Part shown: positions 183-14,881 of the stretch, piece after piece
Numbering within the stretch: the first letter of the stretch is position 1
Layout of the letters: each line of letters opens with the position of its first letter
Source of the DNA: a virus
Direction: 5' to 3' (one strand)
DNA length: 29,313 nt
Virus record (IMG/VR): IMGVR_UViG_3300025759_006851
Span: 1-29,313 of that record
Notes under the pieces: generated by a model
What the model saw: only the letters and a program-made list of their open reading frames with translations
What the model was told of the DNA's origin: nothing
Databases searched by the model: none
Position numbers and translations under genes: made by a program

Positions 183-196
183 GTCCAACATTGGAC
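183..196. repeat. 14-bp perfect palindrome, copy 1 (candidate operator)
   Basis: GTCCAACATTGGAC is a perfect inverted repeat. It sits in the short gap between the 54-residue ORF and the DUF932 gene, 19 bases before that gene's ATG. The same palindrome occurs at 2633 and 11155. Together with its flanks (179-197) this copy is the exact reverse complement of 2632-2650 over 19 bases. Being intergenic, it is the copy best placed to act as a protein-binding site controlling the downstream gene. The role is inferred. Confidence 0.7.
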
Positions 197-214
197 ACTA
201 CAAAGGAACTATAC

Positions 215-231
215 AATGCCTTTAGACTTCC
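215..231 (+). repeat. 17-bp direct repeat, copy 1 (second copy 2414-2430)
   Basis: AATGCCTTTAGACTTCC occurs here, covering the DUF932 start codon and first codons (Met-Pro-Leu-Asp-Phe), and again exactly at 2414-2430 at the start of the 81-residue ORF. The sequences diverge after the 17 bases and the proteins are otherwise unrelated. This looks like a trace of recombination or duplication at the edges of the accessory block. Confidence 0.7.
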
Positions 232-1082
232 CGTTAGATGGGGTTGACCCCCGAATCTTTGGCGAGTTGCCAGAGAATATCAACTTCAAGGTATCCCACG
301 AACCTACTCGTATGGCAGGAAAAAAGTACGTGGTTAATCAATCCAACGGTGAGGTGTTGGGTATTGTTGGAAAGGGCTACCCTATCAACCCGCACCCTAA
401 CTTTTTCCGCCGTGTTCAGGCAGCTATTACTGACACGTTATCTTGGAATGATCTGGACGACGCTAAGGTACGGTGGCAAACCTCTCGGTTTGGTGCGTTT
501 GCACTAATGGATGTCACGTTTCCTAATGTGAAATACACGGTCACAACTGACCGCCATCAAACAGAGGTGTCTCAACGTGTCATTGCATTACATGGTCTTG
601 ATGGCCTGTGTTCTAATCAGATATTCTATGGTGCCATTGATAAGTTCTGTACAAACGGGATGCTATCGGGGGATCACACTCGTATCAGGCGGAAGAACAC
701 TACCAACTGGGACTTGGACACGTTCATTGATGAGCTTAACGAAGCTAAGGTAGAGTTCAATGCACATGGTCGCCTGCTTCAGACATGGGCTGACAAACAG
801 TTGGTAGTGCAGCGGGTGCAAGATGCTCTCAAGGCTATCGTCAAGTCAGATCGTAAGGCAGAGAAGCTGACTACTCTGTACCTCAATGAGGCCACGACAC
901 GTGGACATAATGTGTTCAGTCTTTACAGCGCACTAACTAACTTTGCTACTTATGCAGACGAACGTAACGGGTTCAAGCTACGTGAGACTGCTGCTGACAC
1001 GGCGGCAGTTACAATGTTCAAGCGTGAACAACAGGTTAATGATTGGGTAAGCCACCCTGCATTTAAAGCGCTTGCAGCATGA
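216..1082 (+). CDS. DUF932-family phage/plasmid-like protein
   Basis: The 288-residue product resembles the DUF932 family (phage/plasmid-like proteins, TIGR03299 type). The clearest mark is the segment CSNQIFYGAIDKFCTNGM near residues 131-148, whose C-T-N-G-M core is typical of the family. An N-terminal region with a GKGYPINPH-type stretch comes before it, and a charged helical C-terminal third follows. The biochemical role of DUF932 proteins is unknown; they are common in phage and plasmid early or accessory regions. The start is supported by AAAGGAAC upstream. The gene ends in an ATGA overlap with the phosphate-transporter-like gene, so the two are probably translated together. Its first 16 bases recur exactly at the start of the ORF at 2415. 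Confidence 0.8.
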   Translation: MPLDFPLDGVDPRIFGELPENINFKVSHEPTRMAGKKYVVNQSNGEVLGIVGKGYPINPHPNFFRRVQAAITDTLSWNDLDDAKVRWQTSRFGAFALMDVTFPNVKYTVTTDRHQTEVSQRVIALHGLDGLCSNQIFYGAIDKFCTNGMLSGDHTRIRRKNTTNWDLDTFIDELNEAKVEFNAHGRLLQTWADKQLVVQRVQDALKAIVKSDRKAEKLTTLYLNEATTRGHNVFSLYSALTNFATYADERNGFKLRETAADTAAVTMFKREQQVNDWVSHPAFKALAA

Positions 1083-1528
1083 TACCTAAAATAGAATTAG
1101 GTAATCCTATCGCCACTACACTTGTTGGGCTGGTTGTTTTCTATATCGGGCTGAAGATGTTTTCCGGTGGGATGAAGTCGATGGGTAACATGGATCACCT
1201 ATCGTACTTTATTCACAATCCTTACTGGATGTTTCTAGGTGGTATAGTTATGACCTTGCTGTGGCAGTCATCGTCTCTGTCCACTACTGCAATCATTGCT
1301 CTGGTAGCTTCGGGAGCAGTGCCTTTACCTGCTGCCATTGCATGTGTATTAGGTGCAAACATAGGTACGACTGGTACTATATGGTTGGCAGGTTTGTTTG
1401 TGTCAGACGGTATGCCTAAAGGTGATACACTCAGAATTGCGATGGCTCATACAGGTGTAAACCTTATGATGGCGCTGAGCCTATTACCTTTTGTCCACCA
1501 CATCGCTAGATTCTTAAGTAGATTCTAA
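1079..1528 (+). CDS. half-size Na+/phosphate cotransporter-like membrane protein
   Basis: This 149-residue hydrophobic protein has the hallmarks of one repeat of the Na/Pi cotransporter family (PF02690; NptA/SLC34-like). These are a QSSS motif at residues 63-66, a GANIGTTGT segment at 92-100, and an A-x-x-H-x-x-x-N-like segment (MAHTGVN) at 122-128. About four membrane-spanning stretches can be drawn (about 8-28, 48-66, 70-95 and 120-145). Full transporters carry two such repeats in inverted topology and are at least twice as long; this one has a single repeat and no sign of frameshift decay. It might work as a dimer, modify a host transporter, or do something else. The start codon overlaps the DUF932 stop (ATGA). 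The family call is fairly firm; phosphate transport is an inference. Confidence 0.75.
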   Translation: MIPKIELGNPIATTLVGLVVFYIGLKMFSGGMKSMGNMDHLSYFIHNPYWMFLGGIVMTLLWQSSSLSTTAIIALVASGAVPLPAAIACVLGANIGTTGTIWLAGLFVSDGMPKGDTLRIAMAHTGVNLMMALSLLPFVHHIARFLSRF

Positions 1529-1543
1529 ACAAAGGAATGCAAT

Positions 1544-1927
1544 ATGCTGACAACAGCATTTATGTGCGCTGCTATTGCAGTGTATTACGAGGCTCGCAAT
1601 CAACCACCTGAAGGGCAGCGGCAAGTTGTCCATGTTATAGCCAACAGGGTATACCATTCAGGTTTCCCCGATAACATCTGTGACGTAGTGAAGCAGCGAC
1701 ACCAGTTCAGCTTTTACTGGGACGGTAAGCCTGAACGACCTCGTGATAAAGTTGCGTGGGAGGCAGCTAAGACAGCAGTCGAAGAGGCTTACGAAGAACC
1801 TTATGAAAACTTAGGTGCGACACATTATCATGCGACATATGTGCAGCCTTATTGGTCTTTGTCTCCTAACTTTGTTAGGTTGGCCCAGATAGGAGACCAC
1901 ATCTTTTACGTAGAGGGAACTAGATGA
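1544..1927 (+). CDS. cell wall hydrolase, SleB-like
   Basis: The 127-residue protein matches the SleB/CwlJ-type cell wall hydrolase domain (Hydrolase_2, PF07486). It has the opening AIAVYYEARNQPPEGQ with the presumed catalytic glutamate at residue 16, then VIANRVYHSGFPDNICDVV, RHQFSFYWDG, an ATHYHATYVQPYW segment, and a closing GDHIFY strand. Members cleave the glycan backbone of peptidoglycan. No signal peptide is convincing; the hydrophobic start belongs to the fold. AAAGGAATGC provides the ribosome site and the end overlaps the next gene by 4 bases. A second, unrelated murein hydrolase (GH108) lies at 6034. Which of them is the endolysin, and which is virion-borne or accessory, cannot be told from sequence. 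Confidence 0.82.
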   Translation: MLTTAFMCAAIAVYYEARNQPPEGQRQVVHVIANRVYHSGFPDNICDVVKQRHQFSFYWDGKPERPRDKVAWEAAKTAVEEAYEEPYENLGATHYHATYVQPYWSLSPNFVRLAQIGDHIFYVEGTR

Positions 1928-2415
1928 ACATCTTCAAACTAGCAGACGATCCGGCGCATTGCGCGGAGGATCATTGCGACAAGCACATTGTCAAGATGAT
2001 ACTGGAGTACGGACAGTTGCTGTCCACTGCACATCATGTACTTGATGGTGAGGATGCACCGGAAGGCATCTACAAAAAGACACACGTCAATCATCCATCA
2101 GCAGTGTGGGCCAGAGAAAGTAGTATGAATTATCTGTGGCTATACACACTGATGGGTGAGTGTATGGATGAGTACACTCGCAGGTATGGTAAGGATCATG
2201 CTACAGAGCGTCTTGTACCTATGCTATGCCGCAAGCCTAAGAATATGCCATTCGGTCATCTCACTGACATACCACAATGTATGCCGGATGAATACAAACG
2301 GGAGGGTGATCCTGTTGGGGCATACCGAGCATACTACAAAGGTGAGAAGGCTCACTTCGCCACATGGAAATACACAATCACACCGTACTGGTGGGACAAC
2401 GAGGAAGATGACTAA
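1924..2415 (+). CDS. conserved phage protein of unknown function (MNIF...CDKH family)
   Basis: The 163-residue protein has a pattern I associate with a widespread family of uncharacterised phage proteins: an N-terminal MNIFKLADDP, then HCDKHIVKMILEYGQLLSTA (about 18-37), a KTHVNHPSAVWAR stretch, and a C-terminal YRAYYKGEKAHFATWKYT segment ending in aromatic residues. Conserved His, Asp and Lys residues in the first motif suggest an enzyme, possibly metal-dependent. I have a weak recollection of links to pyrimidine-dimer glycosylase-like annotation in relatives but cannot support that from motifs here. It overlaps the SleB gene by 4 bases and its stop overlaps the next ATG (TAATG). Confidence 0.6.
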   Translation: MNIFKLADDPAHCAEDHCDKHIVKMILEYGQLLSTAHHVLDGEDAPEGIYKKTHVNHPSAVWARESSMNYLWLYTLMGECMDEYTRRYGKDHATERLVPMLCRKPKNMPFGHLTDIPQCMPDEYKREGDPVGAYRAYYKGEKAHFATWKYTITPYWWDNEEDD

Positions 2416-2430
2416 TGCCTTTAGACTTCC
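2414..2430 (+). repeat. 17-bp direct repeat, copy 2
   Basis: This is the exact second copy of AATGCCTTTAGACTTCC, overlapping the start of the 81-residue ORF. It lies about 2.2 kb from copy 1, and a copy of the inverted palindrome follows it by about 200 bases. Confidence 0.7.
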
Positions 2431-2660
2431 TAATGCAGGAAATAAATAACATGCAAGATGTTTACTGCACTCAACCTAAAAAGGTTAATGGCCTATGGGT
2501 TATGAACGTACATACCTACGGAGAAACACTAGGTGTTGCACAGTTTAAAACAAAACAGAATGCTCTTATGTTTAGGGATGAGCTAGATAACTGGGACAAG
2601 ATCGGGGATAAAATATCCCGACGAAAGATGCTGTCCAATGTTGGACGGTTCAACCAGTAG
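2415..2660 (+). CDS. hypothetical protein (81 aa; start may be 2451)
   Basis: This small basic protein contains a segment (VNGLWVMNVHTYGETLGVAQFKTK, shown here only as a region near residues 24-47) that looks like a short beta-sheet domain; no family is recognised. The ATG at 2415 overlaps the upstream stop, but an in-frame ATG at 2451 has a better ribosome site (AGGAA about 9 bases upstream), giving 69 residues. The first 16 bases (ATGCCTTTAGACTTCC) repeat those of the DUF932 gene exactly, which favours a duplicated or recombined 5' end. The 3' end contains the second palindrome, encoding Ser-Asn-Val-Gly, just before the integrase. Confidence 0.6.
   Translation: MPLDFLMQEINNMQDVYCTQPKKVNGLWVMNVHTYGETLGVAQFKTKQNALMFRDELDNWDKIGDKISRRKMLSNVGRFNQ
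2633..2646. repeat. 14-bp perfect palindrome, copy 2
   Basis: GTCCAATGTTGGAC lies inside the last codons of the 81-residue ORF, 29 bases before the integrase ATG. With flanks (2632-2650, TGTCCAATGTTGGACGGTT) it is a 19-base exact inverted match to 179-197. Its place just upstream of the integrase ribosome site would suit an operator for integrase expression, although it is also coding sequence. Confidence 0.7.
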
Positions 2661-2675
2661 TTACAGGAGGGTGAT

Positions 2676-3755
2676 ATGGATGTACCTAAGTATGTCAAAC
2701 GAATTATCAAAAGAGATGGCAAGGTTATATACCACTATCGCCCTCCCCCTAAATACATAAGCTTAGGATTGGTACGTAGACAGGCATTGACAAACAGACA
2801 GTCTACATCCTACAAACTTGCTAAGGAGTTCAATGCTGCTATAGATGAATGGAAAGAGGGGCAGCTTAAACATAAGAACCTGAAAGCTAATGCCCCTCTA
2901 TCTATGCTGGTCTATCAGTATAAACACTCCCCTAACTTCAAGGGCTTACAGGAGGATACTCAAGCAGATTACCTGCTCTATCTTAACAGGGTAGTTGATA
3001 TGTTTAATGACCCACCTATGAGTTCGCTTACGCATAGACAAGCACAGGAATACTACGATGATCTAGTAGATAGCGGAGTGTTCGCTGCTAACAAAACGGT
3101 ACGGATTGCAAGCGTGTTGTTTAACTATGCACTTGACAGGGAGTTGGTTAGTCTCAATCCTTTTTCTCGTGTAAAGAAAAGACAAACACCGCAGCGTAAA
3201 GTTGTATGGTCACATGAACAGGTTCAACAATTCCTCGATACATCTTATGGTAGGTGGGAGTGGAGAAACATTGGGTTGATTTTTCACATGACCTATGCTT
3301 GGGTGCAGAGGGTAGGAGATACTAGACTATTAACGTGGGACAGTATCAACTTTGACAACGAAAGTATTACTATCCTGCAATCAAAAAGAAAGGCTCAGGT
3401 ACACCTACCTATTGAAGAAAAGCTAATGGACTTGCTGCGACAACAGCACAAAGACTTTGGCTTTCAGCCTTACATAGCACCCCGTGTTACACCACATAAA
3501 GGACAGTATCTACCTTACTCTTCTTATATGGTATCACACATTATAAAAGATATTCTTAAAGAAGCTAAGCTACCGTCTACACTACGTGTGAGTGATCTAC
3601 GTAGGACAGGGGCAACACAGATGGTAGAGGGTGGTGTGCCAGTTACATCTATTATGCAAGTAACAGGTCATGTAAATCCTGCCTCTCTTAAACCCTACTT
3701 AAAAAATACATTGAGGGGTGCGACAGAAGCACTCAGAGGAAGGTCAATGGTATGA
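2676..3755 (+). CDS. int: tyrosine recombinase / phage integrase
   Basis: The 359-residue protein has the layout of a phage tyrosine integrase: a basic N-terminal arm-binding part, a core-binding region (about 70-170, with QADYLLYLNRV and a VLFNYALDRELV helix) and a catalytic domain. Visible active-site residues are Arg212 (YAWVQRVGDTRL), a beta-hairpin Lys around 237-239, Arg309 in SDLRRTGAT, His332 in TGH and the nucleophile Tyr341 nine residues later (PYLKNT). The usual His of the HxxR box is Ser306, an uncommon but tolerated change. An AGGAGG box at 2665-2670 with 5-base spacing gives an unusually strong ribosome site. The stop overlaps the primase start (ATGA). An integrase implies site-specific integration, but no attachment site or repressor was identified. 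Confidence 0.93.
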   Translation: MDVPKYVKRIIKRDGKVIYHYRPPPKYISLGLVRRQALTNRQSTSYKLAKEFNAAIDEWKEGQLKHKNLKANAPLSMLVYQYKHSPNFKGLQEDTQADYLLYLNRVVDMFNDPPMSSLTHRQAQEYYDDLVDSGVFAANKTVRIASVLFNYALDRELVSLNPFSRVKKRQTPQRKVVWSHEQVQQFLDTSYGRWEWRNIGLIFHMTYAWVQRVGDTRLLTWDSINFDNESITILQSKRKAQVHLPIEEKLMDLLRQQHKDFGFQPYIAPRVTPHKGQYLPYSSYMVSHIIKDILKEAKLPSTLRVSDLRRTGATQMVEGGVPVTSIMQVTGHVNPASLKPYLKNTLRGATEALRGRSMV

Positions 3756-4519
3756 GGATAAAAGATTTTGTTATTGCGCTTGGGCTAAAACCTGATACAA
3801 CTAAGCGCATGAACTGCCCTAAATGTAATGGGCGTGGTACGTTTACCGCCAGCAACTTACAGGGTGAGCTTGTATGGAACTGCTACAAGGCAGGGTGCGG
3901 CATAAAGGGACGCGACACTACGTCGCTACCAGCTACACATATCAAGCGGCGTCTCAACCCTGTTACCCCTAAGTCTATGGGGCCAGAGCCTTTTGATAGA
4001 CCTGATTACATAGTCAACCAGCAACCAGATACACTGCAAGATTGGTGCGACAAATGGGACATTGACATCAAGGATGTTTTGTACGATGTTAGGCAACACA
4101 GAGCAGTGTTTCCGATCACTTACAAAGGTCTTATGGTGGATGCAGCAGGGCGCGCGATTAGCCAGCATAGGAAACCAAAGTGGTTGCGTTACGCTAGCTC
4201 TGGTGTACCGTACACATACGGCAATGGTATGGTAGGTGTATTGGTAGAGGACTGCATCAGTGCTTATACTGTAGGGCGAGGCAATGTTATAGGTATCTCT
4301 GTCTTAGGCACCTCATTGTCAGAGGATCACATACGTTATCTACCAGTGCTAGATCGTATTGTTATCTGCCTTGACCCCGATGCTCTACCTAAGACGCTCA
4401 AGATAGCGAGCCAACTACGTACTATAGTGCCTGATGTAAAGGTTCTACGTACCACAGATGATCTGAAATACAAACACCCTTCCGACCTTGCGGCATTGGA
4501 GAATATGCTATGGAACTAG
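3752..4519 (+). CDS. DNA primase (zinc finger plus TOPRIM)
   Basis: The 255-residue protein matches a phage primase of the T7 gp4 N-terminal type. A zinc ribbon comes first: Cys22-x2-Cys25 and Cys44-x4-Cys49. A linker and a TOPRIM-like domain follow, with Glu166 in VLVEDCISAY and the Asp208-x-Asp210 pair in VICLDPDA. These residues bind the metal ions used for RNA primer synthesis. In T7 primase and helicase are fused; here the helicase is a separate gene starting inside the last ten bases of this one, which points to coupled translation and joint action at the fork. Confidence 0.88.
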   Translation: MRIKDFVIALGLKPDTTKRMNCPKCNGRGTFTASNLQGELVWNCYKAGCGIKGRDTTSLPATHIKRRLNPVTPKSMGPEPFDRPDYIVNQQPDTLQDWCDKWDIDIKDVLYDVRQHRAVFPITYKGLMVDAAGRAISQHRKPKWLRYASSGVPYTYGNGMVGVLVEDCISAYTVGRGNVIGISVLGTSLSEDHIRYLPVLDRIVICLDPDALPKTLKIASQLRTIVPDVKVLRTTDDLKYKHPSDLAALENMLWN

Positions 4520-5736
4520 CCCTGTTACGATCTCTTATGAACAAAGAGTTCTACTCTTCTACACGTGGGGCTAAGTGTCCTGACTCCCTCTTTACGTCTG
4601 ACGGAAAGAAAATCAAATCTGCTATTGACAAAGCTATATCTTCTTATGATAGAAGCGTAACACCTGATGAGATACAGGCGATCTTCCTTGCTGACAATCC
4701 TTCTCTCAGTACATCACAGAAGACAGCATATGAGAGTATGTTTCTACAGATTAAAAAGCAATCAGAGTTAGGTGTAGATGTAGCACGTGATGTGTTCAGT
4801 AAACTATTCCAACAGGTGTTGGGAGAAGAAATTGCTAACTTAGGGTTTGATTACGTAAATGGTACACAGAATAGTCTCGAACCTCTTCGTAGGCTATTGG
4901 ACAACCACCAAGACAACTTTCTACCACAGACTGACATCGAGTGGGAGAACATGTCACTTGATTATATCTTAGAAAAGAACTCTCAAGAAGCACGTTGGGT
5001 ATTCAACGTCCCATCTCTTACTCGTAAGGTTTCAGGCATCAGTGGTGGTCATCTTATTGAGGTAGGCGCTCGTCCCAACACAGGTAAGACAAGCTTCCAC
5101 GCCTCTCTTGTGGCCGGTACGGACGGCTTTGCTGAGCAGGGTGCTAAGTGTGTGGTACTTTGTAACGAAGAGAGCGCACACCGTGTTACGGCTAGGTATC
5201 TTAGTGCCACTATGAATATGCACATAGATGAGATCGCTGAGAACAAGACACAAGCGCTGGCTAAGTGGAGAGAAAAAGAGAAGAACATCTTTATCAAAGA
5301 CACAACAGGCAAGGACATGGCGTGGGTTGAGTCCCTTTGTAAGGCTGTTGATCCTGATATCCTTGTGCTTGACATGGGAGATAAGTTCGCTTCTATGAAG
5401 GGCAACCCTGCTCGTCCTGACTTAGTACTTGGTGCCAATGCTGTGTACGCAAGACAGATAGCTAAGTACTATGACTGTGCCGTTATGTATATGTCGCAGC
5501 TATCTGCTGAAGCAGAAGGCCGTGTCGTTCTCAACCAAGCTATGATGGAAGGCAGCAAGACAGGCAAGGCAGCGGAGGCTGATCTGATGTTTCTCATTGC
5601 TAAAAACCCTACTGTTGAAGGGCAGGAGGAAGATGATACACAACGTCACATCAACGTCGTAAAAAATAAGTTGACTGGGTGGCACGGTATAGTACACTGT
5701 GATCTAGATTGGCGAAGCGGTAGATACACCGCGTAA
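4510..5736 (+). CDS. replicative DNA helicase (DnaB/gp4-like)
   Basis: The 408-residue protein is a ring-type replicative helicase. An N-terminal helical part (MELALLRSLM... to about residue 130) resembles the DnaB amino-terminal domain. The RecA-like core follows, with Walker A GARPNTGKTS at 186-195, a glutamate-containing CNEES segment near 218-222, and Walker B ILVLDMGD at 284-291. A YMSQLS segment followed by the GSKTGKAAEADLMFLI region corresponds to the DNA-binding and arginine-finger motifs. It should unwind DNA using nucleotide hydrolysis and work with the primase encoded just upstream. The ATG lies in the primase gene's 3' end. Confidence 0.9.
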   Translation: MELALLRSLMNKEFYSSTRGAKCPDSLFTSDGKKIKSAIDKAISSYDRSVTPDEIQAIFLADNPSLSTSQKTAYESMFLQIKKQSELGVDVARDVFSKLFQQVLGEEIANLGFDYVNGTQNSLEPLRRLLDNHQDNFLPQTDIEWENMSLDYILEKNSQEARWVFNVPSLTRKVSGISGGHLIEVGARPNTGKTSFHASLVAGTDGFAEQGAKCVVLCNEESAHRVTARYLSATMNMHIDEIAENKTQALAKWREKEKNIFIKDTTGKDMAWVESLCKAVDPDILVLDMGDKFASMKGNPARPDLVLGANAVYARQIAKYYDCAVMYMSQLSAEAEGRVVLNQAMMEGSKTGKAAEADLMFLIAKNPTVEGQEEDDTQRHINVVKNKLTGWHGIVHCDLDWRSGRYTA

Positions 5737-5765
5737 AACTACAACACAAACACAAGGAGAACTAC

Positions 5766-6041
5766 ATGCCTTTTACTAAAGAAGAAGCTGCCAAACAGCG
5801 AGGTCGCCCTACTCAACCCAAACTTATTACACAACATGAAACTGATGTGCTTCGTGTTCGAGTTGCGTTGCGCGGTGTCGAAGCAGAGAAAAACTCTGGG
5901 CCTCCCTTTATTGTTGTAGACAATGTAGTTGGTATTGTTTATACGGCAGACGGTGTACAAATTCAGAACAGTGCTGGTCATTTTACCCACCTAACATGGG
6001 CCAGTGTTGTGTTTATGGCGTCGGAGAAAATGGATGTATAA
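5766..6041 (+). CDS. hypothetical protein (91 aa)
   Basis: A 91-residue protein preceded by a good ribosome site (ACAAGGAGA). The N-terminal 30 residues are basic and probably extended (MPFTKEEAAKQRGRPTQPK), followed by a beta-rich half with PPFIVVDNVVGIVY. No family is recognised. Its stop codon lies inside the start of the GH108 lysozyme gene (overlap 6034-6041), and it follows the helicase after a 29-base gap, so it belongs to the same transcription unit. Confidence 0.6.
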   Translation: MPFTKEEAAKQRGRPTQPKLITQHETDVLRVRVALRGVEAEKNSGPPFIVVDNVVGIVYTADGVQIQNSAGHFTHLTWASVVFMASEKMDV

Positions 6042-6594
6042 TTTTAAAAAAGCTTTTGGATTAACCGTAGGCCACGAAGGTGGGTATGGAAATGATAAAC
6101 GGGATCGAGGTAACTGGACAACAGGTGTCATTGGAGAGGGAGAACTAAAGGGTACAAAGTATGGCGTTAGCGCTATGTCCTACCCCGATTATGATATTGA
6201 GAACCTTACACTTGAACAGGCTGAGAAAATTTACACCCGTGACTATTGGGATAAGCTGAGTGCTAATCAACTACCGGACGGTGTAGATGTTTTCCTCTTT
6301 GATTATGCAGTTAACTCTGGTGTTGCGCGTTCAGCCATATCCCTTCAACGCATGGTTGGCGCAGCGGATGATGGACACATTGGGCCTCAAACACTTAAAC
6401 TAGTAGAGAAACGGTATTCTAGTGCAGACAAAAGTAAAACACTACAACTTCTCAATCAGTTGTATGTAAACAGAGAACATTTTTACAAAAAGCTTACCAC
6501 CTTTGATATCTATGGTAAGGGTTGGTTACGACGTAACGATGAGATTTTTAAGGCTGCTTCTACTCTGTTGCAGTACGGGGTCATGCGTCCTTAA
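6034..6594 (+). CDS. GH108-type lysozyme (endolysin candidate)
   Basis: The 186-residue protein has the signature of glycoside hydrolase family 108 (ZliS-like secretion lysozymes). VGHEGGYGND carries the presumed catalytic Glu15, then GNWTTG, a KGTKYGVSAM stretch, LTLEQAEKIYTRDYWD, FDYAVNSG and a DGHIGPQTL peptidoglycan-binding-like turn. These enzymes cut the glycan chain of murein, so this is the most likely endolysin. The frame is open up to 6004, but ATG 6034 is preferred: it overlaps the previous stop and follows a GGAG box, and the extra upstream residues (MLCLWRRRK) do not fit the family. No signal peptide is seen, so export would need a holin such as the one proposed at 24231-24392. 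Confidence 0.87.
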   Translation: MYNFKKAFGLTVGHEGGYGNDKRDRGNWTTGVIGEGELKGTKYGVSAMSYPDYDIENLTLEQAEKIYTRDYWDKLSANQLPDGVDVFLFDYAVNSGVARSAISLQRMVGAADDGHIGPQTLKLVEKRYSSADKSKTLQLLNQLYVNREHFYKKLTTFDIYGKGWLRRNDEIFKAASTLLQYGVMRP

Positions 6595-6788
6595 TGCCTT
6601 ATTACATAGACATACCATTAGGATGGAAGTACGGGTTCCCTAAAATAATACCGTATGATAATATCTTTATTCCTGAAGGATTGTTTAAATGGGTAGCTAA
6701 CAATGGATGCCCTCAAGAACATATAGATAATATGGGGAACTCTTTTTATGTTCGTCTTTGGAAGACTATAGACAAAGGAGATACTTAA
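6594..6788 (+). CDS. hypothetical protein (64 aa)
   Basis: A 64-residue aromatic-rich protein (MPYYIDIPLGWKYGFPK...). Its ATG overlaps the lysozyme stop in a TAATG arrangement, implying translational coupling. No domain is recognised. The short gap to the next gene contains that gene's ribosome site (AAAGGAG). Confidence 0.55.
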   Translation: MPYYIDIPLGWKYGFPKIIPYDNIFIPEGLFKWVANNGCPQEHIDNMGNSFYVRLWKTIDKGDT

Positions 6789-6790
6789 CA

Positions 6791-7168
6791 ATGTCAGCTT
6801 GGTATGAAGTAACAAAAGAAATAGAGATGATGGAGGAAGGAGAGGAGAAACGAAGGTTGGCTAAGGAGTTCGGCGTCAACCTGACACTGCCAGCGCAAGC
6901 GCAGGACGCGCCCGGTCTCGCTCCTAAAGACAGAATTAAAACCCGTAGTGATGGAGGTAGTACCGCTTATTATACAATCCCAGAACACGCAAGAGAACTG
7001 CGTCACCTGATCTCACACAAGAATATGTCTAAGTCTAGAGGAGATGTGTTCAAAGCTTGTTATAGATTGGGAGAAAAGGAAGGGGTCGATCTTATGTATG
7101 AGCTAAATAAGATGGAGTTCTTTGTACAAGACTTAAAAGATATGTATGAACGTGGCGAACATATATGA
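6791..7168 (+). CDS. hypothetical protein (125 aa)
   Basis: A 125-residue, mostly helical and charged protein. The N-terminal part is acidic (EIEMMEEGEEKRR), a linker follows, and the C-terminal part contains a STAYYTIPEHARELRHLISH segment and a KSRGDVFKACYRLGEKEG stretch. Similar small proteins occur beside nucleotide and replication genes in marine T7-like phages, but I know no function. The start at 6791 is chosen over an upstream in-frame ATG (6758) because AAAGGAG lies about 9 bases before it and the upstream codons overlap the previous gene. Confidence 0.65.
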   Translation: MSAWYEVTKEIEMMEEGEEKRRLAKEFGVNLTLPAQAQDAPGLAPKDRIKTRSDGGSTAYYTIPEHARELRHLISHKNMSKSRGDVFKACYRLGEKEGVDLMYELNKMEFFVQDLKDMYERGEHI

Positions 7169-7272
7169 TTACATTTTTGCAAGCTGTACTAGCAACAATA
7201 GGGTTGTTCTGTTTTATTGTTTTTATATTATACCTATTGTACGCTGTATCTATAGATGATAGAAAGAATTAA
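7165..7272 (+). CDS. small single-pass membrane protein (35 aa)
   Basis: A 35-codon frame runs from ATG 7165 (overlapping the previous stop as ATGA) to TAA 7270-7272. The peptide begins MITFLQAVLATIG, continues with an almost unbroken hydrophobic stretch of about 24 residues (positions 4-28) and ends with the charged tail DDRKN. This is the shape of a one-pass membrane peptide with its C-terminus in the cytoplasm. It fills the gap between the 125-residue protein and thyX exactly, supporting a real gene. It could be a lysis accessory or spanin-like factor, or an unrelated membrane peptide. Confidence 0.55.
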   Translation: MITFLQAVLATIGLFCFIVFILYLLYAVSIDDRKN

Positions 7273-7273
7273 T

Positions 7274-7951
7274 ATGAATCAAGTTACGTTAGTCGGCTCA
7301 AGTAAAAGCATGAACGAGACGAAGACAGGCTCTAGTTTGCTAGATCAAATAGCATACTACGCTCGTGTGTCTAATCCTACATCTTCTTCTAACCATCTTA
7401 AAAATGATAAGTTAATCCAGTACCTGATCAACCACCGTCATTGGTCGCCCTTCGAGATGGTGGATTGTTGCCTAGACATTACTACTACCCGTGCAATCTC
7501 ACGACAGTTGATTCGACATCGGTCGTTTTCGTTTCAGGAATTTTCTCAGCGGTACGCGGCTACAGAAACAGGGAGTACCGATTGGGTTGACACAAGACTG
7601 CAAGACACAACCAACAGACAGAGTAGCATACCTACTACCGATGCAGCGCTAAGGGCTTGGTGGTTGAACTCCCAAAAACAAGTTAATGATTTAGTATTTG
7701 AAATTTATGATTTGGGTCTTAAGAAAGGTATAGCTAAAGAGCTTATGCGCTCAGTTCTTCCTGAAGGCCTGACTCGTACCCGACTTTATATGAAGGGTAG
7801 TATCCGTAGTTGGATACACTATATTGATTTGCGTACCGATCCATCAACGCAGGCCGAGCATAGAGAGTTGGCACGTATGTGTGCAACGGAAATTGCGAAA
7901 GTCATGCCTTACATTACTGAGTTTGTTCAGCCGGAAAAGACTAACCAATAA
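7274..7951 (+). CDS. thyX: flavin-dependent thymidylate synthase
   Basis: The 225-residue protein is ThyX, which makes dTMP from dUMP using FAD, NADPH and methylenetetrahydrofolate. The family signature RHRxxSxxxxSxR is present as RHRSFSFQEFSQR at residues 81-93. HWSPFE (56-61) and a C-terminal SVLPEGLTRTRLY...SWIHYIDLR region with dUMP-binding arginines are also there. The length is normal. The start at 7274 is preferred over an upstream in-frame ATG at 7256 because the protein family begins near here and 7256 lies inside the small membrane ORF. It acts with the phage ribonucleotide reductase and MazG to supply DNA precursors. Confidence 0.95.
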   Translation: MNQVTLVGSSKSMNETKTGSSLLDQIAYYARVSNPTSSSNHLKNDKLIQYLINHRHWSPFEMVDCCLDITTTRAISRQLIRHRSFSFQEFSQRYAATETGSTDWVDTRLQDTTNRQSSIPTTDAALRAWWLNSQKQVNDLVFEIYDLGLKKGIAKELMRSVLPEGLTRTRLYMKGSIRSWIHYIDLRTDPSTQAEHRELARMCATEIAKVMPYITEFVQPEKTNQ

Positions 7952-7974
7952 CCCTAAAGTAGGATACCCAACTA

Positions 7975-10011
7975 ATGCAGGTAGTTCTTGACGTAGAGAA
8001 TACCGTAACTGAACGAGACGGCAAGAAACACTTTGACCCTTTTGAACCCACCAACACACTCGTTATGGTGGGTGTTCTTTTAGGGGACAATGATTCTAAA
8101 GTCTTTACTATTAACCACACAGAGAAAGGACCAGATGATGTTTCTGAACTACAATCTATTTTGGGAAATTGTACGTGTCTTGTTGGACATAATCTAGTCC
8201 ATGATCTTGTGTGGTTGTGGGAGTGCGGGTTCGAGTACGACGGTCCTATCTACGATACAATGGTGGCTGAGTATGTAATGCTACAGGGTGTCAAAGATGC
8301 AGTGTCTCTAGACGCTTGTTCTGAACGCCATAATCTTACAGTCAAGAAGCAAGACACACTGAAGAAGTATCTAGCTGACGGAGTTTCTGTTGACGAAGTA
8401 CCTCATGCTGAGTTGTCTGACTACCTGATCGACGATCTACGTGCTACGTATCATCTTAAAAAGGTTCAGACCGCCGCTCTTGATAGTGCAGAGTACTCCG
8501 CTCTGCAACCTACCATTGACCTGAGCAACAAGGTTACTGCATGTCTTGCCCGTATGAATCAACGGGGCTTTGCTGTTGATCGTGAGGCTCTTGCAGCAGT
8601 TCGTCTAGAGTACGAGACAGAGCAGGCTACCCTACGACAAGAGCTACAAGAGCAGGCTCAAGAGCTTATGGGTGACTATCCCATCAACCTCAACAGCCCT
8701 GCCCAACTGTCAAGCCTAGTCTACTCACGTGTCCCAAAAGATAAAAAACTTTGGGCGGACGAGTATGGTGAACGTATGTCTGCACAAGACTATCGCCGTA
8801 CTGTGTCGCGTTTATCCGATGTTGTATACAAAAAGAAGGCTATTCAGTGCAGTACATGTAGAGGCTCTGGGAAAATATACAAGACTAAAAAGAACGGAGA
8901 GAGGTGGGCCAAGCCTACAAAGTGTCCTGCTTGTGTGGGTGAAGGTTATCTTTATGAGAACAGGGGTGAGATTGCAGGGCTTAAGTTCATGCCACCTCGC
9001 TCCTCTTGGGTTACAGCAGACGGGTTCAGTACTGGAAAGGATGAGCTTACAGTCCTGTCAGCTACCGCTGCCTCTCTTAACGATAGCAAAGCTAAATCAT
9101 TCTTAGATAAAATGATGCGCTTGAATGCTATCAGCAGCTACCTATCTGCCTTTGTCAATGGTATCGACACATTCACTAAGCCGGATGGTAAGCTACACGT
9201 ACAGCTTACTCAAATCATTACTGCTACTGGACGCTTCTCTGGTCGTAACCCGAACATGCAGAACATGCCACGAGGCAACACCTTCCCCATCAAGAAAAGC
9301 TTTGTATCACGATGGGGCAATGGCCTTGTACTTGAGGCTGACTTTGCCCAATTAGAGTTTCGTGTTGCTGCATTTTTGTCCCAAGACAAGACAGCCATGA
9401 AAGAAATCCTTGAGGGTACTGACGTACATGCTTACACCGCTAAGGTTATTACAGAGGCTGGGCAACCTACCTCTCGACAGGAAGCTAAGGCTCACACCTT
9501 TGCCCCGTTGTTTGGTGCTACAGGCTATGGGCGTACACAGGCAGAGGCAGCTTACTACCATCACTTTATTACTAAATATGCTGGTATTGCTGCGTGGCAC
9601 CAGAGCCTCGCTAAGTCTGCACTCAACAAGGGCTTCATCAGTACGCCATCTGGTAGGCAGTTTGCTTTCCCCAACATCACAAGGAGACGTAACGGAAACC
9701 CCACTGAGTTTACCCGTATCAAAAACTATCCTGTCCAGTCGTTTGCTACGGCTGACATCGTACCCTTCACGTTACTGTACATCGAACACCTACTGAAAGG
9801 AAAGCAGTCATGTATTGTTAACAGTGTTCACGACTCTCTTGTTATTGACGTACACCCTGACGAGCTAGAGCAGGTTAAGTACGTTATCAAACGGGCTAAC
9901 AACAGTTTAGTCACACTTATCAATAAGCAATGGGACATTGACTTCAACGTACCGTTGCTACTCGAATGTAAAATCGGACCTAATTGGCTGGAAGTTAAAG
10001 ATGTCGCTTGA
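7975..10011 (+). CDS. DNA polymerase A with embedded DnaJ-like zinc motif
   Basis: The 678-residue family-A polymerase has an N-terminal 3'-5' exonuclease with Exo I Asp6/Glu8 (VLDVENT), Exo II Asn73/Asp77 (GHNLVHDL) and Exo III Tyr150/Asp154. Between exonuclease and polymerase lies a four-cysteine motif, Cys292-x2-Cys295-RGSG and Cys317-x2-Cys320-VGEG, like half of the DnaJ central domain; this insert is the hallmark of HMO-2011-type phages. Polymerase motifs are ATGRFSGRNPNMQNMP, motif A Asp456 (DFAQLEFR), motif B Arg501-x3-Lys505-x3-Phe509-x3-Phe513 and motif C His619-Asp620-Ser621. Phe509 matches E. coli Phe762; Phe513 stands where Tyr766 usually is, and Ser621 replaces the usual Glu. It is the replicative polymerase. 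AGGA precedes the start. Confidence 0.95.
   Translation: MQVVLDVENTVTERDGKKHFDPFEPTNTLVMVGVLLGDNDSKVFTINHTEKGPDDVSELQSILGNCTCLVGHNLVHDLVWLWECGFEYDGPIYDTMVAEYVMLQGVKDAVSLDACSERHNLTVKKQDTLKKYLADGVSVDEVPHAELSDYLIDDLRATYHLKKVQTAALDSAEYSALQPTIDLSNKVTACLARMNQRGFAVDREALAAVRLEYETEQATLRQELQEQAQELMGDYPINLNSPAQLSSLVYSRVPKDKKLWADEYGERMSAQDYRRTVSRLSDVVYKKKAIQCSTCRGSGKIYKTKKNGERWAKPTKCPACVGEGYLYENRGEIAGLKFMPPRSSWVTADGFSTGKDELTVLSATAASLNDSKAKSFLDKMMRLNAISSYLSAFVNGIDTFTKPDGKLHVQLTQIITATGRFSGRNPNMQNMPRGNTFPIKKSFVSRWGNGLVLEADFAQLEFRVAAFLSQDKTAMKEILEGTDVHAYTAKVITEAGQPTSRQEAKAHTFAPLFGATGYGRTQAEAAYYHHFITKYAGIAAWHQSLAKSALNKGFISTPSGRQFAFPNITRRRNGNPTEFTRIKNYPVQSFATADIVPFTLLYIEHLLKGKQSCIVNSVHDSLVIDVHPDELEQVKYVIKRANNSLVTLINKQWDIDFNVPLLLECKIGPNWLEVKDVA
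8046..8081 (+). terminator. terminator-like hairpin inside the polymerase gene
   Basis: ACCCACCA (8046-8053) pairs perfectly with TGGTGGGT (8066-8073) across a 12-base loop, and the stem is followed by GTTCTTTT. This resembles an intrinsic terminator or attenuator about 70 bases into the polymerase reading frame. It may instead be a coding coincidence around Pro-Thr-Asn and Val-Gly-Val codons. Ribosomes translating the region would normally melt it. Confidence 0.3.
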
Positions 10012-10036
10012 CATTCACTCTTACTTCGAGTATATA
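10008..10036 (+). promoter_or_regulatory. sigma70-type promoter for the SSB/nuclease/RNR block
   Basis: TTGACA at 10008-10013 and TATATA at 10031-10036 are separated by exactly 17 bases, a consensus sigma70 arrangement. The -35 box overlaps the polymerase stop codon, and transcription would start near 10043, leaving a leader of about 25 bases before the ATG at 10070. It lies in the only gap of comparable length on this arm. It fits use of host RNA polymerase and would give separate high expression of the SSB-like protein and genes behind it. Confidence 0.7.
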
Positions 10037-10069
10037 TATATCCTCAAAACCTACAAAGGAACAGATAGA

Positions 10070-10978
10070 ATGAACGCACTAGCAGAACTCGATCCAACAA
10101 ACTTCGCTGAAATGGCAGCACTTGCTGGGATGTCTCAGCCAACCCCGACTACGGGTGGCTACTCTACCCTCAAACGTCTCGGCCTTCAGCACAAGGCTCT
10201 CACAGCCAAGCAAGAAATCAAAGGTAAGCAGGTTAATGTGGAGGTAGTGGAAGCTGGCTGCTACCGACTTGAAGGCCCAACACGTGACGATCCTAAAGTA
10301 TACTCTACGGAAGTAACCGTCCGGCCTTTCATGCAGCGCTTTCTTTACAAGCGTTTTGTCAAAGGTGTGGGTGGTATGCCAAATGAGTATATCAAAACGG
10401 TCATGGGTACAGACATTAAAGCGGACCTAAAAGATAGCGCTGGTAGCTTTAACTGCGGTAAGCCTAGCGGTTACATTGAAGACTGGAATAGTGTGCCTGA
10501 ACCCACACAAAAGATTATCAAAGCTACTAAGCGTACCCGTGTTATCTTTGGCTTGGCTACGTTTAAAAACGCTATCGACGACAAGGGTGACGCTGTAGAA
10601 ATTACTGATGAAGTACCTGTCGTCTGGGAGGTAGACAACCGTGATGCCTTTAAGACTATGGGTGTACCTTTTAATCAGATGATGAAGCGTAGTGTGTTAC
10701 CTATGCAGTACACTATGGCTCTTACGTCTGAGGCTGTTGATCTTCCTAATGGCGATCAGTTCTACCTACCAGTTCAATCTACTGATTTGACAACAGCAAA
10801 AGACCTTGACGCAGGAGACCAAGAGACTTTCCAAAACTTCCTTGATTGGATCAAGCAACGTAACAAATGGGTATCCGAAGATTGGGAGGCTAAGAATGTT
10901 GCTACCCTAGACGATGATCAGAAAGCTCTCGTTAACGAGTTCGTTGACGTAACCTTAGATGACGAAATTCCTTTTTAA
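10070..10978 (+). CDS. single-stranded DNA-binding protein candidate with DDEIPF tail
   Basis: The 302-residue protein has no obvious OB-fold signature I can name, but it ends in DVTLDDEIPF. This is nearly identical to the acidic tip of bacterial SSB (DDDIPF), which recruits replication partners. The N-terminus (MNALAELDPTNFAEMAALAG) is probably helical, the middle is beta-rich and basic, and the last 70 residues are strongly acidic. Position immediately after the polymerase, and its own strong promoter, fit an abundant SSB. The start at 10070 is set by AAAGGAA and by the upstream promoter; the frame extends further back only into the polymerase gene. Role is inferred from the tail and context. 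Confidence 0.62.
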   Translation: MNALAELDPTNFAEMAALAGMSQPTPTTGGYSTLKRLGLQHKALTAKQEIKGKQVNVEVVEAGCYRLEGPTRDDPKVYSTEVTVRPFMQRFLYKRFVKGVGGMPNEYIKTVMGTDIKADLKDSAGSFNCGKPSGYIEDWNSVPEPTQKIIKATKRTRVIFGLATFKNAIDDKGDAVEITDEVPVVWEVDNRDAFKTMGVPFNQMMKRSVLPMQYTMALTSEAVDLPNGDQFYLPVQSTDLTTAKDLDAGDQETFQNFLDWIKQRNKWVSEDWEAKNVATLDDDQKALVNEFVDVTLDDEIPF

Positions 10979-10990
10979 GGAGACTTAAGT

Positions 10991-11854
10991 ATGAACAACT
11001 CCGCTGAACTCGCAGTACATATGCTACTCTCTAACTTGCGCGACGGTAAAACTTCTATGTCTGAAACTACCGTTGATCAGATTACACGTGATGTAAGAGA
11101 GTCCTTGCTCCGCCAGTTCAGCGGAGAAGGCCAGCAAAAGTTTCGTCTTAGGGCGTCCAATGTTGGACAGGATTATTGTCAGCTATGGTTTAAAAAGAAC
11201 CACCCTGAAAAAGCTACACCTTTACCTGATACCTTTCTATTCAATATGGTGCTAGGTGATTTTGTAGAGGCCGTGTTTAAAGGTCTGCTTACAGAGGCTA
11301 AGGTAGACTACGAAGATGCTGAGGAGCTATCACTGAAGCTTACAGACACTGTAACTATCAAGGGTACAACAGACTTATCCATTGATGGTGCGGTTGATGA
11401 TGTCAAGTCGGCTTCGCCGTGGTCTTACACCAATAAGTTTGCCAGCTTTGATAAGCTACAAGCAAGTGATCCTTTTGGTTATGTGGGTCAGCTTGCTGTT
11501 TATTCTAAGGGGCTAAGCAAAAAAGTAGGAGGTTGGTGGGTAGTCAATAAAGCTAACGGCCAGTTTAAATACGTACCTGCCGACTCTATGGACCTAGATA
11601 AAGAAGTATCTAAGCTAGAAGATACGGCTACAGAATTAGAAGCTAATGAGTTTCGTCGGTGCTACGAGCCGGAAGAAGAAAAATTTCGCGGTAAGCCTAC
11701 AGGTAACATTGTTCTGAACTCCACCTGTAAGTTCTGTGACTTTAAGCACTCGTGTTGGGAGGGTCTAGATACACGACCTTCTATCCCTTCGCAGGCTAAG
11801 TTTCCGGCAGACGTAGATTATATTTACATTAAAGAGGAAGACACAGATGCCTGA
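10991..11854 (+). CDS. Cas4/RecB-like PD-(D/E)XK nuclease with Fe-S cysteines
   Basis: The 287-residue protein carries the RecB-family nuclease pattern: Glu93 in LGDFVEAVF, Asp128 in GTTDLSIDG, Asp137-x-Lys139 (DDVKS) and a Gln167...Tyr171 motif (GQLAVYSK). Four cysteines sit where Cas4 and AddB hold a 4Fe-4S cluster: Cys63 and the C-terminal trio Cys246-x2-Cys249-x5-Cys255. It is therefore probably a Fe-S single-strand exonuclease used in recombination or replication, in the place of the T7 gp6 exonuclease. It follows the SSB-like gene by 12 bases with AAGGAGA as ribosome site. There is no CRISPR array, so a CRISPR role is unlikely. The third palindrome copy lies in codons 55-59. Confidence 0.8.
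   Translation: MNNSAELAVHMLLSNLRDGKTSMSETTVDQITRDVRESLLRQFSGEGQQKFRLRASNVGQDYCQLWFKKNHPEKATPLPDTFLFNMVLGDFVEAVFKGLLTEAKVDYEDAEELSLKLTDTVTIKGTTDLSIDGAVDDVKSASPWSYTNKFASFDKLQASDPFGYVGQLAVYSKGLSKKVGGWWVVNKANGQFKYVPADSMDLDKEVSKLEDTATELEANEFRRCYEPEEEKFRGKPTGNIVLNSTCKFCDFKHSCWEGLDTRPSIPSQAKFPADVDYIYIKEEDTDA
11155..11168. repeat. 14-bp perfect palindrome, copy 3
   Basis: GTCCAATGTTGGAC lies inside the Cas4-like gene, 164 bases after its start, encoding Ser-Asn-Val-Gly in the same frame as copy 2. Flanking bases C and A match copy 1, giving a 16-base element CGTCCAA(nn)TTGGACA. Confidence 0.65.
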
Positions 11855-12929: not shown

Positions 12930-14881
12930 TGAGCAATATCTTACCTACAGACTATCAAAACTTTATCGCACTCAGCCGTTATGCACGGTGGAAGGAAGAA
13001 GAAGGACGCCGTGAAGATTGGCAAGAGACAGTAAGCCGATACTTTGATTACGTAGGTAGTTATATCTATGATACATTTGGCTACCTGAAAGCTAAAAAGA
13101 TTCTGTCTGAGGTAGAGGACTCCGTACTAAACTTAGGCGTCATGCCTTCGATGCGAGCTATGATGACTGCTGGTCCAGCTTTGGATCGTTGTCACGTAGG
13201 TAGCTACAATTGTAGTTACATTCCAGTAGACAGCCCCCGCTCATTTGATGAGGCTATGTACATTCTAATGTGTGGTACAGGTGTAGGCTTCAGCGTTGAG
13301 CGTGAGAGCGTAGATAAGCTACCCGTAGTCAATGAAGACTTTCATAGCAGCAACACAATCATTGTTGTTGACGACAGTAAGGCTGGTTGGTGTAAGGCAC
13401 TACGTGAACTCATTGCATGTCTGTATGCCGGACAGGTTCCTAAGTGGGATGTAAGCAAAGTAAGGCCAGCAGGTGCCAGACTTATGACGTTTGGTGGTAG
13501 GGCGTCTGGTCCCGAACCTCTTGAAGACCTGTTTAACTTCTGCATTGACAAGTTCAAAGGTGCAGCAGGACGCAGGCTATTCTCTATAGAAGCACACGAC
13601 ATCATGTGTAAAATTGGAGAGATTGTAGTTGTAGGTGGTGTACGTAGAAGCGCACTGATCTCTTTGTCTAATCTTGGTGACGCATCTATGCGTAAGGCTA
13701 AGTCAGGTGAGTGGTGGGTTAATGAAGCACAACGTTCATTAGCTAACAACTCTGTGTCTTACAAGACAAAGCCTACTATGGAAGTATTCTTTTCTGAGTG
13801 GCACTCACTGTATGAGAGTAAGTCAGGTGAGCGCGGCATCTTCAACAGACAAGCAGCACACAAACAGGCTGCTAAGAATGGCCGCAGAAAGCTAGAGAAT
13901 AAAAACAATAAGCCTATTGAGTGGGGTACTAATCCCTGTTCAGAGATTATTCTGCGACCATATCAATTCTGTAATTTATCTGAGGTAGTTGTTCGTGCTA
14001 CAGATACACTAGAGACACTCAAAGAAAAGGTGAGACATGCTACAATCTTAGGTACGTTTCAGTCTTGCATGACTGACTTTAAGTATCTACGTTCTATCTG
14101 GAAAACTAACACACAAGAAGAGCGTTTGTTGGGTGTAAGTCTAACGGGTATTATGGACCACAACATTCTTAATGGTTCAGAGGGTCTACCAAAAACAAAC
14201 AGGTGGCTGATAGAACTAAAACAAGTAGCCATTGACACTAACACAGAGATTGCATTTGATATGGGCATTCAACAGTCTGCCGCTATCACCTGCGTTAAGC
14301 CGTCCGGTACTGTGTCACAGCTTGTTGATAGTGCGTCAGGCATTCACGCCCGCCACAATCCACATTATGTACGTACAGTACGTGCAGATAATAAAGACCC
14401 TATGACACAGTTTATGATTGACTCTGGCATTCCTGCTGAACCAGACTTTATGAAACCAGAAAGCACAACAGTGTTCTCGTTTCCTATGAAGTCTCCATCA
14501 AGTGCTGTGTGTAGAGATGGTATGTCAGCCATCGAACAACTAGAATTGTGGAAGGTATATCAAAACGCTTGGTGTGAACACAAGCCATCTATCACTGTTA
14601 GTGTACGTGAAGAAGAATGGTTGAAGGTAGGGGATTGGGTCTATGAAAACTTTGATAGCATTTCGGGCGTTAGTTTCTTGCCTCATGCTGAACATTCTTA
14701 TAAGCAAGCTCCGTATCAGGATTGCACTGAGTCTGAGTATACTTCGCTTAAAGAAAAAATGCCAAAGAATATTGATTGGTCTAAACTTTGCGAGTACGAA
14801 AAAGAAGATCACACGTCAGGATCACAAGAGCTTGCCTGTACAGCAGGGGTATGTGAAGTTGTGGACATCACAGGTCGTTAA
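12929..14881 (+). CDS. nrdJ: class II (B12-dependent) ribonucleoside-triphosphate reductase
   Basis: The 650-residue protein is a monomeric adenosylcobalamin-dependent ribonucleotide reductase like the Lactobacillus leichmannii enzyme. The radical cysteine Cys337 and Glu339 lie in NPCSEI, with redox Cys348 eleven residues later, the same spacing as Cys408/Cys419 in that enzyme. The partner redox cysteine is probably Cys95 (GSYNCS), and the C-terminal shuttle pair is Cys637-x4-Cys642 (CTAGVC). CGTGVGFSVER and the VKPSGTVSQL segment are further family marks. It reduces ribonucleotides to deoxyribonucleotides for phage DNA synthesis and depends on host cobalamin, common in marine bacteria. The frame is intact with all key residues. 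Confidence 0.94.
   Translation: MSNILPTDYQNFIALSRYARWKEEEGRREDWQETVSRYFDYVGSYIYDTFGYLKAKKILSEVEDSVLNLGVMPSMRAMMTAGPALDRCHVGSYNCSYIPVDSPRSFDEAMYILMCGTGVGFSVERESVDKLPVVNEDFHSSNTIIVVDDSKAGWCKALRELIACLYAGQVPKWDVSKVRPAGARLMTFGGRASGPEPLEDLFNFCIDKFKGAAGRRLFSIEAHDIMCKIGEIVVVGGVRRSALISLSNLGDASMRKAKSGEWWVNEAQRSLANNSVSYKTKPTMEVFFSEWHSLYESKSGERGIFNRQAAHKQAAKNGRRKLENKNNKPIEWGTNPCSEIILRPYQFCNLSEVVVRATDTLETLKEKVRHATILGTFQSCMTDFKYLRSIWKTNTQEERLLGVSLTGIMDHNILNGSEGLPKTNRWLIELKQVAIDTNTEIAFDMGIQQSAAITCVKPSGTVSQLVDSASGIHARHNPHYVRTVRADNKDPMTQFMIDSGIPAEPDFMKPESTTVFSFPMKSPSSAVCRDGMSAIEQLELWKVYQNAWCEHKPSITVSVREEEWLKVGDWVYENFDSISGVSFLPHAEHSYKQAPYQDCTESEYTSLKEKMPKNIDWSKLCEYEKEDHTSGSQELACTAGVCEVVDITGR

Follow-up and report, generated by a model that had tools for sequence, protein, structure and literature searches.

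Dispersed palindromes in the early region of HMO-2011-type marine phages as candidate operators of a specificity-switching regulator

In KorB/ParB-type plasmid systems, a single palindrome is repeated across the replicon at intergenic as well as intragenic positions. Lambda-type immunity (CI/Cro) relies on palindromic operators, and phage-specific operator/regulator pairs are swapped as a unit among relatives. Cluster A mycobacteriophages such as L5 and Bxb1 carry stoperators, i.e. dispersed repressor sites that lie mostly off promoters, are largely co-oriented with transcription and have a consensus of their own in each immunity group (PMC6550527); the structure of the Cluster A repressor has been solved (PMC9283540). 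Here, we describe a repeated palindrome in the virus record IMGVR_UViG_3300025759_006851, a 29.3-kb fragment of an HMO-2011-type marine phage (29,313 nucleotides, analyzed as a whole and referred to as the window), whose DNA polymerase is 57% identical to the polymerases of CRP-345 and HMO-2011. The window contains three exact copies of the 14-bp palindrome GTCCAANNTTGGAC, and fuller relatives carry five to eight copies per genome, with five to seven GTCC sites in near-complete genomes; these are limited to the early region or found mainly there. Phages of the HMO-2011 type rank among the most abundant viruses of the sea. The words "repressor" and "promoter" are absent from two papers on these phages (PMC9038755, PMC6918029), which mention no regulator, promoter or operator, and a literature search for the 14-mer gave no match.

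We consider it likely that a phage-encoded regulator of switching specificity uses the palindromes as operators. This regulator is most likely the product of the first early gene, gp01, and would act by repression and in a stoperator-like manner. The sites, their distribution and conservation, the change of class in place and the association with gp01 are observed here, whereas binding, repression, a block to elongation and immunity are inferred from sequence; metagenomic contigs may be incomplete. As in Cluster A phages, the sites are dispersed and mostly off recognizable promoters, and related phages possess distinct consensus sequences that are paired with the regulator, here by association with gp01. 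However, Cluster A phages have 20–30 asymmetric 13-bp sites genome-wide, whereas in the present case 5–8 sites occur in the early region and consist of a palindrome with asymmetric centre and flanks; moreover, the structure of the Cluster A repressor is solved, while gp01 matches no solved fold. Palindromic operators and the exchange of operator/regulator pairs as a unit are shared with lambda-type immunity, but clustered tripartite operators are missing, no HTH_3 protein was found and the sites extend over several kb. The KorB/ParB-type arrangement of one palindrome, inter- and intragenic, is likewise shared. Thus, partition, replication or DNA-organization sites (ParB/parS- or KorB-like) with gp01 as binder have to be weighed, as scattered palindromes with a replicon-specific binding protein would look alike. 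This is improbable: the ParA ATPase (AAA_31, PF13614) was found in 0 of 11 phages but in 14 of 14 control genomes, gp01 matches no ParB/KorB Pfam model, and the palindromes cluster just ahead of early genes.

The original prediction, which had been made from the sequence of the window alone, held that the three copies are exact and not expected by chance, and both statements were borne out. The copies occupy positions 183–196 (centre CA), 2633–2646 (TG) and 11155–11168 (TG), the CA- and TG-centred forms being one 14-mer seen from opposite strands. No fourth copy with at most one mismatch is present in the window, and one copy with two mismatches lies at 13173. GTCCAANNTTGGAC is the sole 14-mer that reaches three copies in the window, and in 60 dinucleotide shuffles of the window neither a 14-mer nor a 6+6 palindrome ever did so. 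Copy 1 (GTCCAACATTGGAC; extended form AACC-GTCCAACATTGGAC-ACTA) is intergenic and bounded by a stop codon (178–180) and the start of the DUF932-family gene (216–1082, plus strand; PF06067, E=1.6e-05), from which it is separated by 20 nucleotides (nt). It is exact and conserved in L084, G001 and G002, and a distant relative (G007/L014, DUF932 49% identical) has a single copy 27 nt ahead of its DUF932 gene, a gene present in all operator-bearing phages. Copy 2 (GTCCAATGTTGGAC) is located 29 nt 5' of the ATG of the tyrosine integrase gene (2676–3755, plus strand; PF00589, E=6.2e-19) and overlaps the 3' end of a small open reading frame (ORF) on the plus strand that has no Pfam match (2415–2660). 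In G002, this palindrome is intact although the 40 bases upstream of it diverge. All near relatives that overlap the region retain copies 1 and 2 in place ahead of the DUF932 and integrase genes, which supports the original prediction. Copies 1 and 2 are members of the operator set. The accessory genes between them code for a Na/Pi cotransporter (PF02690, 1079–1528) and a pyrimidine dimer glycosylase-like protein (PF03013, 1924–2415).

Copy 3 (GTCCAATGTTGGAC) differs in character. It is situated within a Cas4-like (PD-(D/E)XK) gene (10991–11854, plus strand; PF12705, E=0.0022, below the curated cut-off), where it provides the codons for Ser-Asn-Val-Gly (SNVG), and the protein motif SN[VI]G is conserved at this position. 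The original prediction had considered that relatives might keep SNVG without the palindrome and lose the intergenic copy. The palindrome is exact in 10 of 100 Cas4 loci, and intergenic copy 1 is conserved. The site is exact in the window, G001, G002, G014, CRP-345 and L018, and in CRP-345 and G014 it is still an exact palindrome despite a changed centre and changed codons. Versions with one mismatch also occur in palindrome-free phages, e.g. CRP-2. Copy 3 may be largely a coincidence of codons, and it is also a possible operator. That all three copies arose by chance or codon usage is hardly credible, even though copy 3 encodes a family motif with near-matches in phages lacking the palindrome, as the shuffles, the conservation of copies 1 and 2 and the further copies in relatives exclude it for the set.

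Near-identical contigs reaching further left contain extra copies ahead of early genes. In the 52.9-kb relative G001, the sites are at 330, 587, 1471, 2565, 5000, 13482 and, with one mismatch, 52506; compared with these seven sites, CRP-1 has five, CRP-345 six and HMO-2011 five. Among isolates, CRP-1 and CRP-345 bear the GTCCAA palindrome and HMO-2011 a drifted, TTAGTCCGACAGCGGACTAA-like form with the centre reversed in one site, while no palindrome set was found in CRP-603, CRP-207, CRP-2, CRP-235 and HTVC033P. Scanning IMG/VR for the longer form ACCGTCCAANNTTGGACA retrieved at least 119 stretches with up to six copies each among the matches listed. A consensus of 198 unique sites gives the extended form AAAnnGTCCAAYRTTGGACnnTTT, with the centres TG (123), CA (42), CG (19), CC (7), GG (4) and TA (3). 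The original prediction of an operator set for early genes is supported, if the sites are operators, with the refinement that the set spans the whole early region and is not restricted to the integrase and DUF932 genes.

Asymmetric centres are seen both ways round, as CA/TG and CC/GG and, in HMO-2011, as ACAG/CTGT. Because of these two orientations, the symmetry of the sites is one of double-stranded DNA, which supports the view that the half-sites belong to a DNA-binding regulator. An asymmetric 2-bp centre, several copies and a nearby integrase could also be indicative of site-specific recombination at short serine-recombinase-like crossovers. However, the phage has a tyrosine integrase, early genes share one orientation, and the flanks hold their side regardless of the direction of the centre, which makes recombination sites extremely unlikely.

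With regard to placement, 142 of 230 oriented GTCCAA sites lie no more than 60 nt before a start codon with a ribosome-binding site, and for 100 of these the distance is 15–24 nt; 68 are within open frames and 20 are in neither position. Judged by the flanks, the orientation is mostly that of the early genes, and in several contigs one copy in the control region points the other way. A short RNA hairpin located in the 5' leader, acting on translation, mRNA stability or processing, could explain why many sites precede a start codon by 15–25 nt and why the asymmetric flanks are mostly co-oriented with genes, and GTCCAA and HMO-type sites indeed fold at -6.4 to -9.2 kcal/mol. We nevertheless regard an RNA element as unlikely, given the two orientations of the centre, the 68 sites inside open frames and the lack of Rfam matches in the window, L145, L352 and L353. 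Folding of the class sequences also disfavored a hairpin as the feature common to all operator classes introduced below: TTTACTGGTAAA forms none, and the GTAACG hairpin reaches only -2.7 kcal/mol.

Phages sharing the DUF932 gene fall into several groups, each of which has its own, unrelated palindrome repeated at equivalent places. Besides the GTCC type, these are TCCCAAnTTGGGA, GTACTCnnnGAGTAC, GTCCGATGTCGGAC, AGTCCGACAGCGGACT, GTAACGnCGTTAC, TGTTAWWTAACA and TTTACTGGTAAA. Three or more copies of a 5+5 palindrome were present in 18 of 40 real loci, and never more than two in 40 simulated loci. The most telling comparison is that of L322 and L330, whose DNA is 96% identical across long blocks (proteins: DUF932 97.8%, integrase 98%). 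L322 has six GTAAC-class sites (GTAACGnCGTTAC) and no TGTTA-class site, while L330 has six TGTTA-class sites (TGTTAWWTAACA) and none of the GTAAC class. In three aligned pairs, the operator is swapped and the adjoining sequence is unchanged on at least one side. Neither a structural RNA nor a shared host factor readily explains this exchange in place. DUF932, considered as the binding protein, was rejected as the specificity factor, as it is ~98% identical across a full operator switch.

The sites could alternatively be read by a host transcription factor, the phages borrowing host control. In agreement with this, HTH_3 repressors (PF01381), which are present in 14 of 14 control genomes, exceed the cut-off in 0 of 11 phages. 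Yet the operators at a given locus differ between near-identical phages (though L322 and L330 could differ in host), and class tracks a phage gene, gp01, so that a host factor appears quite improbable.

Operator class is independent of the DUF932 and polymerase phylogenies. The DUF932 protein of L322 is 87% identical to that of HMO-2011, 85% to L349, 83% to L317 and 61% to CRP-1, but HMO-2011 has the class and gp01 family of CRP-1 despite its closeness to L322 in DUF932, and L322 has its class and gp01 in common with L317 only (gp01 34%, E=2e-22). The regulator gene had been expected outside the window, and its best candidate is indeed gp01, which encodes ~200 residues with the motif IDRRRRSEALWF and, in relatives, lies upstream of the part covered by the window. 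By clustering of early-region ORFs and profile search, gp01 was the sole family found in 14 of 14 GTCC-type, 0 of 5 palindrome-free and 0 of 8 other-class phages, the last count being firm only for the loci that reach the gp01 position (L277, L317, L322, L349 and L396). In other classes, the protein at this position is similar in size without significant similarity to gp01 (L277 375–1112; L349 47–739; L396 1198–1872 on the reverse strand). The predicted structure of gp01 is all-helical and comprises two domains as well as a disordered linker (predicted local distance difference test score, pLDDT, 82; predicted template modelling score, pTM, 0.59), while the AlphaFold model of the L322-type gp01 is unusable (pLDDT 42). 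Many gp01 genes hold the operator inside the linker as PSNVGQ, with SDVG where the operator of the genome is GTCCGA. Taken together, gp01 is probably the protein that reads the palindromes.

Several points weigh against this assignment. Gp01 has no recognized DNA-binding domain and no Pfam match above the cut-off, the confidence of its model is moderate, and a fold search yielded no PDB match at E<=0.001; in BFVD, one match was obtained at 4.7e-4, an unnamed viral protein of 205 residues. The gp01 position is not covered in several of the eight other-class loci, which are fragments, and for L330, whose gp01 lies off the contig, the same-class phage L396 had to be substituted. Two further small genes are common to 13 of 14 and 12 of 14 GTCC-type phages, respectively; these are missing from the clade of the window and one other clade. 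Covariation of gp01 with the half-site is inconsistent: L413 has GTCCGA operators and a gp01 near that of GTCCAA phages, which contradicts a gp01 insert that at first looked promising as covarying with GTCCGA operators. Finally, the majority of sites have no promoter-like sequence upstream. Of 356 sites, 37 are preceded by a TTGAnA-N15-18-TA pair at a distance of up to 100 nt, compared with four at random places and none downstream, and initiation control therefore cannot account for the sites without it.

We infer that a regulator acting as a dimer (or multimer), most likely gp01, would bind the palindromes as double-stranded DNA. At the few sites that closely follow a promoter, bound gp01 would most likely repress, and at the remaining intergenic and intragenic sites it may block passing RNA polymerase as stoperators do. 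Since operators flank or sit within gp01, the protein would also damp its own synthesis. Its function could be shut-off of early genes and/or superinfection immunity, and selection to escape the regulators of related phages may then lead to joint exchange of the whole operator set and gp01. More tentatively, the proteins at the gp01 position of HMO-2011-type phages might form several families, unrelated in sequence, of a new kind of DNA-binding regulator, each with its own palindrome, and whole operator sets might be rewritten in place upon exchange of gp01. If true, one of the ocean's most abundant virus groups would possess a system of immunity or competition. Operators that change together at many sites between near-identical genomes bear on the evolution of repressor specificity, and the operator set offers a testable regulator and allows a specificity class to be read from metagenomic phages.

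The original prediction of a lysogeny or early-gene switch is supported for the early-gene set, but a lysogeny switch is not established. The integrase of the window is compatible with a temperate life. However, a search with DUF932 across 84,980 species genomes revealed no clear prophage of this group, another point against the proposed role; its five contigs from metagenome-assembled genomes were free-phage-like, and the three that were examined had no repeated palindrome. CRP-3, the one HMO-2011-type phage shown to integrate (PMC6918029), has no palindrome sites in the parts examined, and integration of CRP-1 was not identified in that study. Early shut-off without lysogeny is therefore a possible role of the sites.

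A few further features of the early region were recorded. An operator-like GTCCAAGGTTGGAC in the interior of the integrase gene is conserved in L351 (7079–7092), L353 (6868–6881), G014, G015 and G016 and may be either functional or driven by codons. In L303, ATTTGACAAAT is repeated (69, 402, 1370, 5908) and was excluded as an operator class owing to its resemblance to a -35 box; TTGACA precedes a TATTAT/TATAGT-like box by ~16 nt, and the element looks like a repeated early promoter. Upstream of several operators there is a long inverted repeat with arms that vary by phage (GTTATATAACACT, GTACCTAAGTGTTACCCT) and a constant loop, CTTTAGTGA (L148 (G002) reverse strand, 2812 and 3142; L352, 21 and 1221; L353, 1007). 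It is possibly an RNA hairpin with a recognized loop (nut-like) that overlaps a TTGATA-N16/17-TATAAC promoter. Early genes of HMO-2011 match the Pfam families Phage_L5_gp82 (E=1.5e-33) and GP88 (E=2.5e-43; L352:1550–1951 and L352:433–1182), which is a link between the early regions of marine phages and actinobacteriophages.

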